Below, piece after piece: positions 985-36,410 of a stretch of DNA of 64,000 nt; within the stretch, counting starts at the first letter, position 1; every line of letters starts with the position of its first letter. Made by a program: the position numbers and the translations under genes. The stretch comes from Aneurinibacillus soli (GTDB taxonomy: Bacteria > Bacillota > Bacilli > Aneurinibacillales > Aneurinibacillaceae), in NCBI RefSeq assembly GCF_002355375.1, contig NZ_AP017312.1, positions 532,001 to 596,000 of the forward strand, read 5' to 3'. The notes under the pieces were generated by a model. The model did no database searches. It was not told the origin of the DNA and saw nothing but the letters and a program-made list of their open reading frames with translations.

Positions 985-2127
985 ATGCATTTACAATTTA
1001 CAGAAGAGCAAGATATGATGCGCAAGATGGTGCGCGACTTTGCGCGTGAGGAGATTGCACCGCAGATCGAAAAAATGGAAGAGAACGATGAATTCCCATA
1101 TGAGATCATTCGTAAGATGGGAGAATACGGTCTGATGGGGATTCCGATTCCAGAAGCATACGGCGGTTCAGAAGCGGATTTCATCTCGTATATCATTGCC
1201 ATTAATGAAATTTCCAAAGTAAGCCCGACAGTAGGAGTAATTCTCTCTGTACACACTTCGGTTGGAACGAACCCGATTTTGTACTTCGGGAATGAAGAGC
1301 AGAAGAAGAAGTATGTGCCGAAGCTTGCGACAGGTGAATACATTGGTGCGTTTGCGTTAACGGAACCAAGTGCAGGCTCTGATGCAGCGGGCATGCGAAC
1401 AACGGCTGTGAAGCAGGGCGATAAATATATTTTGAACGGCTCCAAGATTTTTATTACGAATGGTGGTGCGGCAAGTACGTACATCGTATTTGCGGTAACA
1501 GATTCATCCAAAGGACCAAAAGGGATTTCTGCTTTCATTGTAGAAAAAGATACACCAGGGTTTACTGTAGGCAAAAAAGAGAAGAAAATGGGTCTGCACG
1601 GTTCGAGTACAACCGAGCTCATTTTCGATAATGCGGAAGTGCCAGCAGCAAATCTACTTGGCGAAGAGGGCATGGGCTTTACTATCGCGATGGCTAACCT
1701 TGATGTTGGTCGGATCGGGATTGCTTCACAGGGTCTTGGGATTGCGGAAGGTGCGCTTGAGCATGCGATTGCGTATGCCAAAGAGCGTGTTCAGTTCGGC
1801 AAACCGATTGCAGCGCAGCAGGGAATCGGCTTCAAACTCGCAGATATGGCAACACAGACAGAAGCGGCTCGTATGCTTGTATACCGTGCGGCAGCGCTGC
1901 GTAATGCAGGCGTGAAGTGCGGATTGGAAGCATCAATGGCGAAGAAGTTCGCAACCGACACGGCTATGAAGGTAACCACAGAAGCGATCCAGGTATTCGG
2001 CGGGTATGGATATACGCGTGAATATCCGGTAGAGCGTTTGTTCCGCGATGCTAAAGTTACACAGATTTACGAAGGAACCAACCAGATTCAGCGTCTTGTA
2101 ATTTCAAAGCACTTACTAAACAAATAA
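985..2127 (+). CDS. Acyl-CoA dehydrogenase (short-chain type), copy 1
   Basis: FAD-dependent alpha,beta-dehydrogenation of acyl-CoA thioesters, with electrons passed to electron-transfer flavoprotein. The 380 residues cover the N-terminal, middle and C-terminal ACAD domains. The AFALTEPSAGSDA signature lies in the middle domain. The C-terminal motif IYEGTNQIQ carries the probable catalytic base E363, the position used by short- and medium-chain enzymes. The start follows AAGGAGG at 971-977. It is a close paralogue of the next gene (same length, many identical blocks), so the pair looks like a tandem duplication. Chain length or branched-chain preference cannot be read from sequence alone; neighbouring icmF makes butyryl/isobutyryl-CoA plausible. 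Confidence 0.92.
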   Translation: MHLQFTEEQDMMRKMVRDFAREEIAPQIEKMEENDEFPYEIIRKMGEYGLMGIPIPEAYGGSEADFISYIIAINEISKVSPTVGVILSVHTSVGTNPILYFGNEEQKKKYVPKLATGEYIGAFALTEPSAGSDAAGMRTTAVKQGDKYILNGSKIFITNGGAASTYIVFAVTDSSKGPKGISAFIVEKDTPGFTVGKKEKKMGLHGSSTTELIFDNAEVPAANLLGEEGMGFTIAMANLDVGRIGIASQGLGIAEGALEHAIAYAKERVQFGKPIAAQQGIGFKLADMATQTEAARMLVYRAAALRNAGVKCGLEASMAKKFATDTAMKVTTEAIQVFGGYGYTREYPVERLFRDAKVTQIYEGTNQIQRLVISKHLLNK

Positions 2128-2152: not shown

Positions 2153-3295
2153 ATGGACTTTCAACTGTCTGAAGAACACAAAATGCTGCGTCAAATGGTA
2201 CGTGATTTCGCTGAGAATGAACTAGCTGAAAAAGCAGGCGAACGTGATGAAGAAGAACATTTTGATATGGAAGTATTCCACAAGATGGCAGAACTCGGTC
2301 TAACAGGTATTCCGTGGCCGGAAGAGTACGGCGGCGCGGGCTTTGATTATCTGAGCTATGTGATCGCAGTAGAAGAGCTGTCTCGTGTTGATTCCTCTGT
2401 AGGGGTTACTTTATCCGCTCATACGTCGTTAGCAGGCTGGCCGATCTATAAGTTCGGTACAGAAGAGCAGAAGCAGAAGTATCTTCGTGCGCTGGCAGAA
2501 GGCCGCAGCATGGGTGCATACTGCCTGACAGAGCCGGGTTCTGGTTCGGATGCAGCTGGTATGAAAACTGTTGCGAAGCGTGATGGCGATGATTACATCC
2601 TGAACGGGTCCAAAATCTTCATCACAAACGGCGGACTTGCTGACATTTATGTTGTATTTGCAGCGACAAATCAAGAATTGAAACATAAAGGCCAAACCGC
2701 TTTCATCGTGACAAGCGATATGCTAGGCTTCAAAGTCGGCAAAAAAGAGAAAAAGCTCGGCATTCGTTCTTCTGCAACAACCGAAATCATCTTCGAAGAT
2801 TGCCGTGTACCGGCTGAGAACGTTCTCGGCAAAGAAGGAGAAGGTTTCAAAGTGGCAATGATGACGCTTGATGGAGGCCGTAATGGTATCGCTGCACAGG
2901 CGGTAGGTATTGCAGATGGCGCTCTGACACATGCTACTGCATATGCAAAAGAGCGCGTGCAGTTCGGCAAGCCGATTGCAGCACAGCAAGGCATTGCCTT
3001 CAAGCTGGCTGATATGGCGACAAAAGTAGAAGCAGCACGTCTCCTGACATACCAGGCAGCCGTGCTTGAAGATAAGAAACTCCCATATGGCAAAGCTTCC
3101 GCGATGGCGAAGCTGTTCGCGGGTGATATTGCAATGGAAGTAACAACCGATGCGGTGCAAGTATTCGGCGGTTACGGTTACACACGTGAATATCCAGTTG
3201 AGCGCTTCATGCGTGATGCCAAGATTACACAGATTTACGAAGGAACAAACGAAATTCAGCGTCTCGTCATTTCAAATTACTTGCTTAAAGACTAG
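2153..3295 (+). CDS. Acyl-CoA dehydrogenase (short-chain type), copy 2
   Basis: Second FAD-dependent acyl-CoA dehydrogenase, 380 residues, only 25 bp after the first. It has the same signatures: [12 protein letters not shown] in the middle domain, and IYEGTNEIQ with the probable catalytic Glu at 363. The RBS AGGAGTGGAGAG precedes ATG 2153. Divergence from copy 1 is spread along the protein rather than concentrated, as expected for an old duplication with altered substrate range. In B. subtilis an acyl-CoA dehydrogenase gene (acdA) also sits upstream of rpoE, so one of the two is probably its positional equivalent; which one is not decidable here. Confidence 0.92.
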
Positions 3296-21574: not shown

Positions 21575-21697
21575 ATGGTTGGGAGTAGAGAAGAGAGAAG
21601 CAAGAGAGCGCCTGTACGCGATTACCCAGCGGAAGGAGAACGGCGAACGGGCCTTTGCCCGCAATCCTTCCGTGAAAGAACATCTGGGGCTTTTCTT
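21575..21697. repeat. Palindrome family copy B, left half
   Basis: The arm GGGAGTAGAGAAGAGAGAAG (from 21581) is an exact inverted match to 23413-23432. The inner sequence, ending GGGCTTTTCTT at 21697, closely follows the intact copy D (36027-36142), which continues directly into TTTGCGGGCGAG. Here that continuation is found 1.6 kb away, beyond the IS110 element. This half also shares GAACGGCGAACGGGCCTTTG with copy D. Confidence 0.8.
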
Positions 21698-21804
21698 ACG
21701 ATTAGTCAAGTGAATCATAATGATTTTGAGTGATTATTTTGTAAGTAACAGGGGGAGGAAGCGGAGAGAAAATAACAGGTTTCACAGAAAGTATGGATGT
21801 TGAC

Positions 21805-21855
21805 ATACCAAATAAACCTAGGGTGTTTTTATTTTTTGCTAGGTTTATTTGGTAT
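21805..21855. repeat. Perfect 16-bp inverted repeat near the IS right end
   Basis: ATACCAAATAAACCTA (21805-21820) and its exact complement at 21840-21855, with a 19-base loop. It lies between the recombinase stop codon and the IS end. It may stop converging transcription or bind a regulator; the stem is too A/T-rich for a typical terminator. Confidence 0.65.
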
Positions 21856-21875
21856 ATGGTATGATAGAAATTGCA

Positions 21876-23093
21876 TTATGATCTGGTGGCACACTGGTAC
21901 TCATAGTGCTGATTGTGTGTAATAAGGTAGAAGAGGCACTTCAAGAGCTTATTTACACAAGCGATCGACGCAACTTTATGACACTTGTTATAAGGTTGCG
22001 TTTTTACTTTGTCATAGTACTCAACGAGATGGTTGTTCCCGAAACGACGCTGTTTAATCATATTCTGAATGACAAGGTAAAGCAGTTTACGCAGGTGCTT
22101 GTTTCCGCGCTTATTGATTTTATCCTGGAAAAAGGTTTTACCGGACTGGAACCGTCGGATATCAATCCCTGCAAAGGCGTTGAGCTGTTTCGGATTGTCG
22201 AAGCGGCGGATGTCTCCGATTTCGGCGAGTAAACGCACCGCTGTATTTACCCCAATGCCCGGAAAGCTGAGAAGAACTTGATAGTCCTCTCGATGCATGC
22301 TCATTTCCTCCATTTGCCGAATCAGAGCTTCTCGTTGGCGAAGAATCTCCAAATAACGTTTGACATAGATGCGTAGCTGGTCACAAAGAACATCGGTTGC
22401 GGAAACCGCCGGATACGAGTTCTGTGCGGCTTCAAGCAACTGGATGGCTTTCTTCTCAGCGGTACCTGCCGATAACTTTTTGTCGGTACTCTTGAGAATC
22501 CGGTTTCTGATTACGGTTTTGGAAAGACCGTTCACGAGATCGGGATGTGGAAATAACTGAATGACATGTAAACAGAGCTCCGATCGGCTTGTAAAGATCG
22601 TTTCCAGTTCGGAAAAGGTCAGTTGAATGACTTTATGCATCCGATTGCGAAGAGTAGAAAGTTCTCCGTCTAATTCTTGGTAAAACCGAGAGAGAGACTT
22701 TAGCTGCTGGAAGAAGTCATTGGGTACTTCTTTTTCTCTTCGAGAGACCGTGAAATGAGTCAACGCCAGCCGATGAGCGTCACTTCGATCCGTTTTATGC
22801 ATCCGCATAGAAGCGGACTGCAGTTTGGCTTCAAGCGGGTTTAACAGGCAATAGGTGTACTGATGATCTTGCATAAAGCGTTCCAGTTGTCTGGAGTATA
22901 CGCCCGTAGCTTCGAAAACAATGGACGGTTGTTCCCCATCTTGCTCGATCAGCTTCTCCATGCAGGCATGCAACCCTTCAAAATCGGAACGGGTATGCCG
23001 GATTTCTCCTTCAAACTCACAGTGCCGGTCGGCATTGTACACCACCCAATAGCTCTTTCCCATACTTACATCAAATGCGACTACATGTTTCAT
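21876..23093 (-). CDS. IS110-family recombinase/transposase
   Basis: 405 residues from the ATG at 23093, preceded by AGGAGGAG; the frame runs 13 codons further upstream without support. The N-terminal RuvC-like DEDD domain has D8 (FDVS), E61 (FEATG), D102 and D105 (KTDRSDA). A coiled-coil region follows. The C-terminal Tnp domain has PGIGVNTAVRLLAEIGD and the candidate catalytic serine S317 in FQSGKT. All key residues are intact, so it is predicted active. The long upstream non-coding stretch and the length place it in the IS110 rather than the IS1111 subgroup. Confidence 0.93.
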   Translation of the reverse strand: MKHVVAFDVSMGKSYWVVYNADRHCEFEGEIRHTRSDFEGLHACMEKLIEQDGEQPSIVFEATGVYSRQLERFMQDHQYTYCLLNPLEAKLQSASMRMHKTDRSDAHRLALTHFTVSRREKEVPNDFFQQLKSLSRFYQELDGELSTLRNRMHKVIQLTFSELETIFTSRSELCLHVIQLFPHPDLVNGLSKTVIRNRILKSTDKKLSAGTAEKKAIQLLEAAQNSYPAVSATDVLCDQLRIYVKRYLEILRQREALIRQMEEMSMHREDYQVLLSFPGIGVNTAVRLLAEIGDIRRFDNPKQLNAFAGIDIRRFQSGKTFFQDKINKRGNKHLRKLLYLVIQNMIKQRRFGNNHLVEYYDKVKTQPYNKCHKVASIACVNKLLKCLFYLITHNQHYEYQCATRS

Positions 23094-23139
23094 GGTTGTT
23101 CTCCTCCTGATGTTCGTTGTAGAAGCCTTCACGCATCCT

Positions 23140-23323
23140 TATCGATTCCCTTTTCTTATACACGATCTCAATGGATCCAACATACTGAAGCTGATTCAAA
23201 TAAGGGCAGTGAAGTTGGCCTGTTTCTTTGACGGATTCAAGATCCCGAAGCCCACTCGGCCTGTTTCTTCACTTCTACCACAAAAAAATAGTAGCACAAA
23301 CCGTGGCCTTGGTCTGTGCTACT
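23140..23323 (-). ncRNA. Candidate IS110 bridge RNA
   Basis: Read on the minus strand from 23323: a 13-bp stem (AGTAGCACAGACC with GGTTTGTGCTACT, one mismatch) followed by ATTTTTTTG; then a loop closed by AGTGAAG/CTTCACT (23273-23208); then a loop closed by CTTAT/ATAAG (23204-23155). The first loop carries GTGGGCTT (23255-23248) and CAAAGAAA (23230-23223) on opposite sides of an apical hairpin; these match the two halves of the palindrome target, GTGGGCTTTTCTTTG in copy D. The second loop carries AGTATG (23186-23181) and ATCGT (23166-23162), matching the two IS ends. The first hairpin with T7 could alternatively be a terminator that shields the IS. Confidence 0.65.
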
Positions 23324-23341
23324 AATCTTAGTATGTTTCTT

Positions 23342-23439
23342 TGCGGGCGAGTTCGTCGGTCTCCTGGAGCGGACAGTCTAAGCTTCCCTGTCAAGCGTAC
23401 CCCAGCGAACGGCTTCTCTCTTCTCTACTCCCCCACCAC
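23342..23439. repeat. Palindrome family copy B, right half
   Basis: Continues the interrupted copy: TTGCGGGCGAGTTCGTCGG, the family core GGAGCGGACAG at 23366-23376, a CTTCCCTG block, and the terminal arm ending CTACTCCCCCACCAC. The arm pairs exactly over 21 bp with the left half at 21581-21601. Confidence 0.8.
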
Positions 23440-23465
23440 GCTCGATCCCACAAAATCACAATATA

Positions 23466-34414: not shown

Positions 34415-35566
34415 GTGGCGAAGAAAAAAATTATGACTGTGTTTGGAACGCGACCAGAAGCGATCAAGATGGCGCCGCTTGTGCATGAACTGCGCCAGTA
34501 TGAAGAACTTGAACCGTTTGTATGTGTAACGGCCCAGCACCGTCAGATGCTTGATCAAGTGTTGGAGATTTTTGCGATTGAAGCGGATGCCGATCTAAAC
34601 ATCATGAAGGAACGTCAGACGCTCACACAGGTGACAACTCGTGTGCTTGAAGGTCTTGATGAAGTCATGAAAACAGAAAAGCCGGATATGGTGCTTGTTC
34701 ATGGAGATACGACAACGACATTTGCGGCCAGTCTGGCAGCGATGTACAATCAGATCCCGGTTGGGCATGTAGAAGCGGGCCTGCGTACATGGAATAAGCA
34801 TTCGCCGTTCCCGGAAGAAATGAATCGGCAGTTGACTGGCGTTATGTCTGATCTTCATTTTGCTCCAACTGCCCAGGCAGCGGATAACTTGAAGCGGGAA
34901 GATAAGCCATTAGAAGCGATTCATATTACGGGCAACACGGTAATTGATGCGCTCAAGACGACGGTGCGTGACGATTATAGCCATCCGGTACTGGAAGAGT
35001 TTGCGGACAAAAAGCTCGTCTTGATGACGGCACACCGCCGCGAAAATCTTGGGGAACCGATGGCTCGGATGTTCCGAGCGATTCGTCGCTTGGTGGATAA
35101 ACATGAGGACATCGCAGTTGTGTATCCCGTACACCTGAATCCGGTCGTACAGGAGGCAGCGGCGAAGTATCTTGGCGAGCATCCACGTATCCAACTCATC
35201 GCGCCGCTTGATGCGGTTGATTTCCATAACTTTATGTCACGTGCTCACCTTATCCTGACGGACTCTGGCGGTATCCAGGAAGAAGCTCCGGCATTCGGTG
35301 TGCCTGTACTTGTACTGCGCGACACGACGGAGCGTCCAGAAGGCATCCAGGCGGGCACACTCAAGCTTGCAGGTACAGACGAGGAGACGATCTTCGGCCT
35401 TGCAGATGAGCTGTTAAGCAGTCAGGAAGCGTATGAGAAAATGGCGAAAGCCGCCAACCCGTACGGTGACGGGGAAGCATCCCGTCGCATCTGTGAAGCA
35501 ATCCTCTACTACTTTGGCCTCCGCACGGAGAAGCCGGAGCCGTTTGGAGCGAGATTGACGAAGTGA
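34415..35566 (+). CDS. mnaA: UDP-N-acetylglucosamine 2-epimerase (non-hydrolysing)
   Basis: Converts UDP-GlcNAc to UDP-ManNAc for secondary wall polymers. 383 residues with GT-B fold. TVFGTRPEAIKMAPL, HGDTTTTFAASLAAMYNQIPVGHVEAGLRT, EEMNRQLTG and LTDSGGIQEEAPAFGVPVL are the family motifs. GTG 34415 follows GATGAGGTGAG. ManNAc-containing, pyruvylated wall polymer is the usual ligand of SLH domains, and an SLH protein is encoded next. Confidence 0.95.
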   Translation: MAKKKIMTVFGTRPEAIKMAPLVHELRQYEELEPFVCVTAQHRQMLDQVLEIFAIEADADLNIMKERQTLTQVTTRVLEGLDEVMKTEKPDMVLVHGDTTTTFAASLAAMYNQIPVGHVEAGLRTWNKHSPFPEEMNRQLTGVMSDLHFAPTAQAADNLKREDKPLEAIHITGNTVIDALKTTVRDDYSHPVLEEFADKKLVLMTAHRRENLGEPMARMFRAIRRLVDKHEDIAVVYPVHLNPVVQEAAAKYLGEHPRIQLIAPLDAVDFHNFMSRAHLILTDSGGIQEEAPAFGVPVLVLRDTTERPEGIQAGTLKLAGTDEETIFGLADELLSSQEAYEKMAKAANPYGDGEASRRICEAILYYFGLRTEKPEPFGARLTK

Positions 35567-35580
35567 CGATAAATGAACGA

Positions 35581-35629
35581 AGAGGCTGTCCCAAAAGCTG
35601 TAACACAGCGATTGAGGCAGCCTCTTTTT
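35581..35629 (+). terminator. mnaA terminator
   Basis: AGAGGCTG (35581-35588) pairs with CAGCCTCT (35618-35625), followed by TTTTTC. An inner GCTGT/ACAGC hairpin is also possible. The 5' arm is part of the 17-bp inverted repeat that bounds 35582-36310. Confidence 0.7.
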
Positions 35630-35878: not shown

Positions 35879-36020
35879 CTTTTGTTAAACACTATCAAGC
35901 AATATCAAGAGGCTGAGCTTTGCTATGCAGGTAAAAAATAAGGCAGACATTTTTCGAAAAGCCAGTAGCTATTGAACAAATCCATTCTGACGGCGAGAGT
36001 CTTTTTGTAAACCGAAACGT

Positions 36021-36245
36021 TGTGCGGGGAGTGGGAGAAGGGATGAGTAAGAGAGCGCCTATACGCGCCTGCTCAGCGGAGGGAGAACGGCGAACGGGCC
36101 TTTGCCTGCAACGCTTCGGTGAATCGACATCGTGGGCTTTTCTTTGCGGGCGAGTTCGTCGGGCTCTCGGAGCGGACAGTTACCACTTCCCTGCAAGCGT
36201 ACCGAAGCGAACGGCTCCTCCCTTCTCCCACTCCCTCACCACCAA
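36021..36245. repeat. Palindrome family copy D (intact type copy)
   Basis: Arm GGGAGTGGGAGAAGGG (36027-36042) pairs exactly with 36220-36235; the outer part adds CACCACC. Core GGAGCGGACAG at 36169-36179, followed by ACTTCCCTGCAAGCG. The centre holds CGTGGGCTTTTCTTTGCGGG (36131 on), the uninterrupted form of the site where IS110 sits in copy B. Confidence 0.8.
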
Positions 36246-36410
36246 ACTTTGTCGATTTCACAATAAAAAAGCTGCCCTGTTCGCCATGTTCTGGCTTTTG
36301 GGACAGCCTCCTTTTCTCTTTTTCGTTCTCATTAAGAAACAAATGGAAGCCTTTGTGCGTCTAATTCAGATGGAGAACGTATAGATCAATACATACACGA
36401 GAGGAGAAAG

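Follow-up and report, generated by a model that had tools for sequence, protein, structure and literature searches.

Among the insertion sequences (IS) of the IS110 family, IS621 is one of the closest described systems for the element considered here. Its RNA consists of a 5' stem-loop, a target loop and a donor loop, in the same order along the gene strand as described below (PMC11208160). The catalytic residues of its recombinase are D11, E60, D102, D105 and S241, and the second T of its core is almost invariant (PMC11208158), while CT, GT, AT and TT cores were tried (PMC11208160). The order of guides was described to differ between the IS110 and IS1111 groups (PMC11187229, where the RNA is named seekRNA). 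Here, a stretch of 64,000 nucleotides from Aneurinibacillus soli (contig NZ_AP017312.1, positions 532,001 to 596,000; referred to as the window) was analysed, in which an IS110-family element splits one copy of a dispersed palindromic repeat. It is very probable that this element is active or recently active and that an RNA encoded upstream of its recombinase gene acts as a bridge RNA, programmed for the middle of the repeat and for the element's own ends. The pairing of guides with ends is, as judged from sequence, reversed when compared to IS621, since the left end (LE) joins the half of the target read by the 3' guide; this reversal was missed in the sequence-only reading that preceded our analysis.

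The element, its gene and the repeat copies in the window are as follows:
21695-23336 (1642 bp), minus strand: IS110-family insertion sequence between two core copies, with LE at 23336 and the right end (RE) at 21695
21876-23093, minus strand: transposase (recombinase) gene, 405 aa, Pfam DEDD_Tnp_IS110 and Transposase_20
21693-21694: core copy TT at RE, placed by junctions of relatives
23337-23338: core copy TT at LE, placed by junctions of relatives
21575-21692, plus strand: left half of split repeat copy B, outer edge approximate
23339-23439, plus strand: right half of split repeat copy B, outer edge approximate
36020-36242, plus strand: intact repeat copy D, folding at -106 kcal/mol (z -4.18)
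36132-36146, plus strand: intact target GTGGGCTTTTCTTTG, core TT at 36140-36141

The limits of the element were taken from the identity of seven genomic copies (21698-23336) and then refined with junctions of relatives. Both Pfam domains, the N-terminal DEDD domain (PF01548) and the C-terminal one (PF02371), are present in the recombinase, which scores 206.9 bits against NCBIfam NF033542 (cut-off 140); ISCro4 and IS621 are its best sequence matches among solved structures. Residues E61, D102, D105 and S317 align with IS621, and D8 lies two columns off D11 of IS621. The non-coding ends are unequal (LE 243 bp, RE 181 bp), with the longer one upstream of the gene, as in the IS110 group. Rfam gave no matches at gathering scores in the whole window.

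The genome that contains the window (4.117 Mb, one contig) carries seven copies of the recombinase gene with its upstream region, all 100% identical, and over the 1639 bp compared no difference was found among the seven IS copies. All seven split the repeat, which is about 223 bp long, at one and the same position. The flanking repeats are unlike each other, and on the RE side they differ within about 10 bases of the junction. At least 40 near-full-length repeat copies with 85-100% identity were found in this genome; this is a lower bound, since scoring covered 40 of 180 candidates, and the seven split copies come in addition. Exact GTRGGCYTTTCTTTG sites occur ten times in the genome, 10/10 of them inside listed repeat copies, and the same sequence read backwards, used as a control, gave 0 sites. 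The sister species (G006) has 34 repeat matches (hand count), each covering at least 200 of the 223 positions with 77% identity or more, and the other five genomes of the genus have zero to two weak matches each. As G006 has the repeat but no transposase relative at E<=1e-100, the repeat is independent of the IS110 element. Two further repeated structures were observed in the window: 62-nt inverted arms flank repeat copy D (35566-35627 and 36265-36326, 71% complementary), and a second dispersed repeat pair lies at 1936-2120 and 3104-3288 (185 nt, 77% alike).

Relatives were found in 14 of 398 genomes of the class sample (E<=1e-80, own genome included) and, among 261 genomes from one family, in 37 (E<=1e-100), with a few others besides; a peptide-pattern scan of genome contigs gave 2 loci, and plasmids 2 records at E<=1e-80. 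In the element's own family (1/11, E<=1e-100) and own order (1/15, E<=1e-80), only its own genome matched, and for this reason no close comparison is available. The conserved upstream region is present in 95 of 96 pooled loci, own copies included; the remaining locus, L105, gave no RNA match.

The predicted RNA, its loops and its guides are placed as follows:
23130-23318, minus strand: predicted bridge RNA, start set from the -10 spacing, approximate 3' end, fold conserved across 42 sequences
23208-23273, minus strand: target-binding loop, helices 3-5 of the conserved fold
23135-23207, minus strand: donor-binding loop with outer stem, limits approximate, helices 6-9 of the conserved fold
23248-23255, minus strand: 5' target guide GTGGGCTT, pairing with the target half on the RE side
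23223-23230, minus strand: 3' target guide CAAAGAAA, matching the target half on the LE side together with the core
23179-23186, minus strand: 5' donor guide AGTATGTT, complementary to LE AACATACT
23151-23166, minus strand: 3' donor guide ATCGT-(4 nt)-AAGAAA, matches RE ATCGT-AAGAA with a 4-nt bulge

A letter-for-letter check found the guide, arm and target sequences of the sequence-only reading where it had placed them, including AGTATG at 23186-23181 and ATCGT at 23166-23162 on the minus strand; the closing arms of the target loop lie at plus-strand positions 23208-23214 and 23267-23273. Its matches of 6/8 and 8/8 at the occupied site were also counted correctly. At the seven insertions, GTGGGCTT matches in 6, 6, 7, 6, 8, 7 and 7 of 8 positions, or in 6, 8, 8, 7, 8, 8 and 8 when G-U pairs are counted, and CAAAGAAA matches in 8/8 in six cases and 7/8 in one.

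The relationship between guides and flanks holds beyond this genome. The loop and both flanks could be read in 79 of 95 loci, the other 16 missing loop, LE or RE by the patterns used, and the score was the longest match in nucleotides, with the reverse-complemented 5' loop half set against the RE flank. When each of 37 genomes or records was represented by one locus, the mean match of the 5' guide to the RE flank was 7.49, compared to 4.61 after permutation (reached in 0/1000 permutations), and that of the 3' loop half to the LE flank 5.24, compared to 4.71 (0/1000). For the same set, the IS621 order gave no signal (742/1000 and 252/1000). The test was repeated on 22 guide clusters, one of which holds 30 loci, with 20 draws of 200 permutations: the values were 7.20 versus 4.39 for the 5' guide and RE flank (0/4000) and 5.38 versus 4.69 for the 3' guide and LE flank (12/4000), again with no signal in the IS621 order (2707/4000 and 1592/4000). 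Examples are a Mesobacillus element with guide GGAACCGCCTTT and flank AAAGGCGGTT, one in genome G455 with GAGCGGACGCT and AGCGTCCGC, and one in Bacillus arachidis with GTGTATGCTTT and AAAGCATAC. The earlier proposal that the element is programmed for the dispersed repeat is well supported by this covariation of guides with flanks, by the single insertion position of the seven copies and by the confinement of exact sites to the repeat.

The upstream region is predicted to encode a conserved two-loop RNA. In 42 aligned upstream regions, the window included, a structure of 5' stem-loop, target loop and donor loop has 96.6% of its cells paired, and double-sided changes occur in 26 of 48 pairs (shuffled mean 9.1). 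None of five fold measures was reached by any of 500 shuffles, and the control with slid partners gave 25.8-50.2% paired. The bridge-RNA layout with two loops, suggested earlier from the window alone, thus reappears in the relatives as a fold with compensatory changes, and the absence of conserved structure, which had been named as grounds for abandoning it, is not what was found.

The donor loop was also claimed to match the IS ends, and this agrees with the relatives: the donor hexamer is exactly complementary to the LE hexamer in 35 of 37 genomes or records. In one of these 35 (G167), both sides of the pairing are changed (CAGACT/AGTCTG) and complementarity is kept. In G154, G378 and G122, AGGAA at RE is echoed by AGGAAA in the donor loop, maybe through one shared event (the 3' donor guides of G378 and G122 were taken from the alignment); in G234, the donor loop has no match to the RE motif. 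As the donor guides vary little, covariation between donor loop and ends is weak. For the core, the sequence-only reading had favoured CT, the usual one in IS110, but the junctions of relatives give TT. The patterns used to find junctions fixed LE from ACATACT inward and RE up to GTA[AG]GA, so only the letters outside are free evidence. Left junctions, of which 77 are distinct, have A at both positions before ACATACT without exception, and the next letter outward varies; on the right, A follows GTA[AG]GA in 70 of 71 distinct junctions, and the letter after it varies. The core is therefore read as AA on the gene strand, which is TT in the RNA frame; compared to the CT of IS621, the first base differs and the second T is kept. 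A TT core accounts for the shared TTTCTT block of the sequence-only reading and speaks against CT.

The 5' guide of the donor loop reads LE, so that this loop is flipped in parallel with the target loop. The RNA frame is thus conserved, with gene and RNA turned round together between the ends. Within the RNA, the parts are arranged as in IS621: the left half of the target strand is copied by the 5' guide, the right half corresponds to the 3' guide as its reverse complement, and T is the second core base. Two elements with canonical order were used for comparison. One is an IS621 copy in an E. coli genome, found by a 99.6% match to a bridge RNA. Its 5' guide ATCGGGCCT resembles the LE flank ATCAGGCCT, which is the canonical order for the left side, the side that was read; the left part of this copy is duplicated. 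The other is an Enterococcus IS110 element with a known empty site (protein 26% identical), in which the 5' segment CGTTTGTCTA equals the left half of the target and the donor segment TTATCACC equals its own right end, as in the IS621 order; it is the weaker control, with a nearly palindromic target and an RNA fold barely above shuffles (z -1.35). IS4321 was tried as a control for the IS1111 order and dropped, as its target could not be reconstructed, and the IS1111 order is taken as published. The clade combines an IS110-type upstream RNA with the published IS1111 guide order. Word searches of PMC11208160, PMC11187229 and PMC11208158 gave no mention of this combination, preprints and most of the subscription literature lying outside this search.

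It is proposed that the target loop would address the middle of the palindromic repeat and the donor loop the two ends of the element, and that a complex of recombinase and RNA would link the circular element with the repeat at the TT core. The position of insertion is given by comparing sequences; the joining reaction itself is inferred. After circularisation, a candidate promoter across the RE-LE junction (TTGACT-17-TAAGAT) would drive the RNA.

Several observations weigh against this reading. In the window copy, the CG that follows the 5' guide is unpaired with the TT core. Eight of the 37 genomes or records (G374, G378 with its first copy, G460, G610, G553, G536, G519 and Cytobacillus) have a 5'-guide match of 5 nt or shorter, approximately the permuted level, and one copy in G535 (L112) and one in G532 (L116) lie in sequence that does not resemble their guides. 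The sequence-only reading had named identical loops beside unrelated flanks as a result that would count against it; this concern is answered for most relatives and stands for these eight. The third result named there, a transcript stopping at the first hairpin, may still turn out to apply; this hairpin is terminator-like. A-rich sequence on both sides weakens the 3'-guide signal. Part of the structure came from the same 42-sequence alignment on which it was scored, so that the comparison favours it over its slid versions. The single-sequence fold of the window RNA is little above shuffles (z -1.76, 10/200), and the opposite strand folds better (z -3.55). Finally, the donor hexamer is mismatched in 2 of 37 genomes or records, G118 (a G-U) and G553.

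Explanations that do without guided insertion have to be considered next to these observations. RE flanks fold better than LE flanks: of 72 insertions (window genome excluded), 29 have a z below -2 at the RE flank and 5 at the LE flank, and the RE flanks of some relatives are terminator-like hairpins (e.g., G234, G144 and G462), while many others are not. In 2006, palindromic REP sequences were described as carrying IS elements (PMC1525189). If the repeat were recognized by protein–DNA contacts or by DNA structure such as hairpins, then the guide matches would be by-products; however, differently guided relatives occupy different sequences, with flanks that follow the guides, and six of the seven RE flanks in the window genome lie above z -2 in a 50-nt window, with one at -2.4. 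Such recognition is, in our opinion, highly improbable. Hardly more credible is the proposal that the seven copies came to share a site through homologous recombination between repeats and not through repeated guided insertion. It is suggested by the identity of the seven copies over their compared length and by the likeness of the repeat copies (85-92% to copy D), but the flanking repeats of the seven differ close to the RE junction, and guides match flanks in relatives at many unlike sites.

A different origin of the guide order deserves more attention, although we consider it improbable: the element might belong to the IS1111 group, with its RNA moved upstream and the reversed order inherited. 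The guide order equals the one reported for IS1111, and a few IS1111 members with an upstream region are mentioned in the same source (PMC11187229). The window copy also has a 7-bp subterminal inverted repeat, GATTAGT. This repeat, however, is not kept in the clade (CTAATC at RE in at most 47 of 71 distinct junctions), and the protein has 405 aa as opposed to 330-350 for IS1111. A tree of 16 proteins does not help the proposal, as long branches leave the deep placement unsettled. Guided insertion by an IS110-family element with an upstream bridge RNA remains the explanation that we prefer.

The leader of the RNA and the elements of the junction promoter lie at the following positions:
23289-23324, minus strand: 5' stem-loop followed by U7, terminator-like, outer 6 pairs upstream of the predicted start site
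21704-21709, minus strand: candidate -35 TTGACT near RE, kept in relatives, 17 nt from the -10 in the circle
23325-23330, minus strand: candidate -10 TAAGAT near LE, TAACAT in about half of distinct junctions

A promoter scan of 21600-23450 gave none at LE, and the sole promoter-like site lies inside the element on the plus strand. The leader stem-loop with its U-tract scores as a terminator with 14 pairs. The start site was set at the hexamer plus 6 nt, a spacing checked on IS621, and when this spacing is applied, the predicted RNA starts inside the leader hairpin. Identical leaders were collapsed to 38, with one for each of 35 genomes or records, and the stem finder allowed one mismatch. In this set, the mean hairpin energy is -22.5 kcal/mol for the full hairpin versus -10.6 for the truncated one, and the gap from truncated stem to U-tract (as defined by the script) is 5-9 nt. 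Pairing of the outer arm is kept through changes in G154, G378 and G122. It is possible, although we lean slightly against it, that the bridge-RNA cassette is turned round with respect to the IS ends and that the leader forms a terminator divided by the start site. A host read-through RNA would then hold the whole hairpin beside the U-tract and stop before the guides and the transposase, while an RNA from the circle promoter would begin inside the hairpin, lose the outer arm and read through. Guide RNA and transposase would be made only in the excised element. For an element with relatives that often target terminator-like palindromes, this would be a fitting safeguard, and it would explain, if true, the silence of such elements in place. 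In IS10 and IS50, a read-through RNA with an extra arm sequesters the ribosome site; the arrangement proposed here is similar in that the outside RNA carries an extra arm blocking expression, and differs in that a terminator takes the place of the sequestered ribosome site. Against the split terminator, it has to be noted that the start site is a predicted one and that the G154, G378 and G122 lineages may represent one event. In addition, conserved 5' stem-loops of IS110 RNAs are described to help the RNA bind the recombinase (PMC11208158).

Some matches stand apart from the clade. The covariance model R1 found 5 of 398 genomes in the phylum (E<=1e-4, stricter filters); two of these, the own genome and G092, had been part of the alignment used for training, and three are new, with flanks that do not decide the guide order. 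In L147 and L149, which lie outside the class, a terminator hairpin at the LE flank is loosely like the 5' guide, which would be the IS621 order; both are single copies, L149 is without a gene, and L147 has also an 8-mer match on the other side. L148 (G767:C46:43914-44110) has a leader hairpin very like that of the clade, no adjacent transposase gene, and looks like a remnant. L151 (G092:C3:888391-888513) is a second, weaker match on the opposite strand that overlaps the main one, perhaps through an inverted leader hairpin. In the Enterococcus element (L142), a weak RNA-model match of 22.6 bits lies at 1825-1998 (minus strand), at the right end and on the strand opposite to the gene. Among relatives, insertions beside terminator-like hairpins at the RE flank were seen in L060, L064, L067, L070, L072, L107 and L133, and GAGGCTGGGACA or similar stands at the RE flank of many others.

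The published rule that separates IS110 from IS1111 by guide order rests on one IS110 member, ISEc21, and the present clade breaks it. As an upstream RNA occurs here together with the IS1111 order, guide order is not fixed by the location of the RNA. It follows for applications that the RNA frame, core and ends need to be worked out for each clade before an ortholog can serve as a bridge-recombinase tool. For specificity rules, the 405-aa enzyme, its TT core and the 22 natural guide clusters, whose flanks are known, form a ready data set.

Compared to IS621, the window element shares a DEDD and Ser recombinase, an upstream RNA with a 5' stem-loop, target loop and donor loop, a junction promoter (here a candidate seen in sequence) and discontinuous pairing on the 3' donor guide (PMC11208160); palindromic REP targets of IS110 elements are a further likeness. 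It differs in that LE joins the 3'-guide half here and the 5'-guide half in IS621, in its core and length (TT and 405 aa versus CT and 326 aa), and in its leader hairpin, which has a U-tract and an arm that begins upstream of the predicted start site. With ISEc21, the IS110-type element of the seekRNA work, it has in common an upstream non-coding region and two guides matching both target strands, but in the published order of ISEc21 the top-strand match is 3' of the bottom-strand match, whereas it is 5' of it in the window element. In its RNA, the two target matches follow each other as in the IS1111 group (ISEc11, ISPa11 and ISKpn4), in which, however, the RNA lies downstream of a shorter transposase, of the length given above (PMC11187229), and subterminal repeats measure 7-17 bp, compared to the GATTAGT of the window copy that the clade does not conserve. 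Guide order apart, ISPpu9 of Pseudomonas putida is similar in being an IS110-family element that occurs in seven copies in repetitive palindromes, although its targets are REP sequences and not a palindrome of about 223 bp (PMC8450116).
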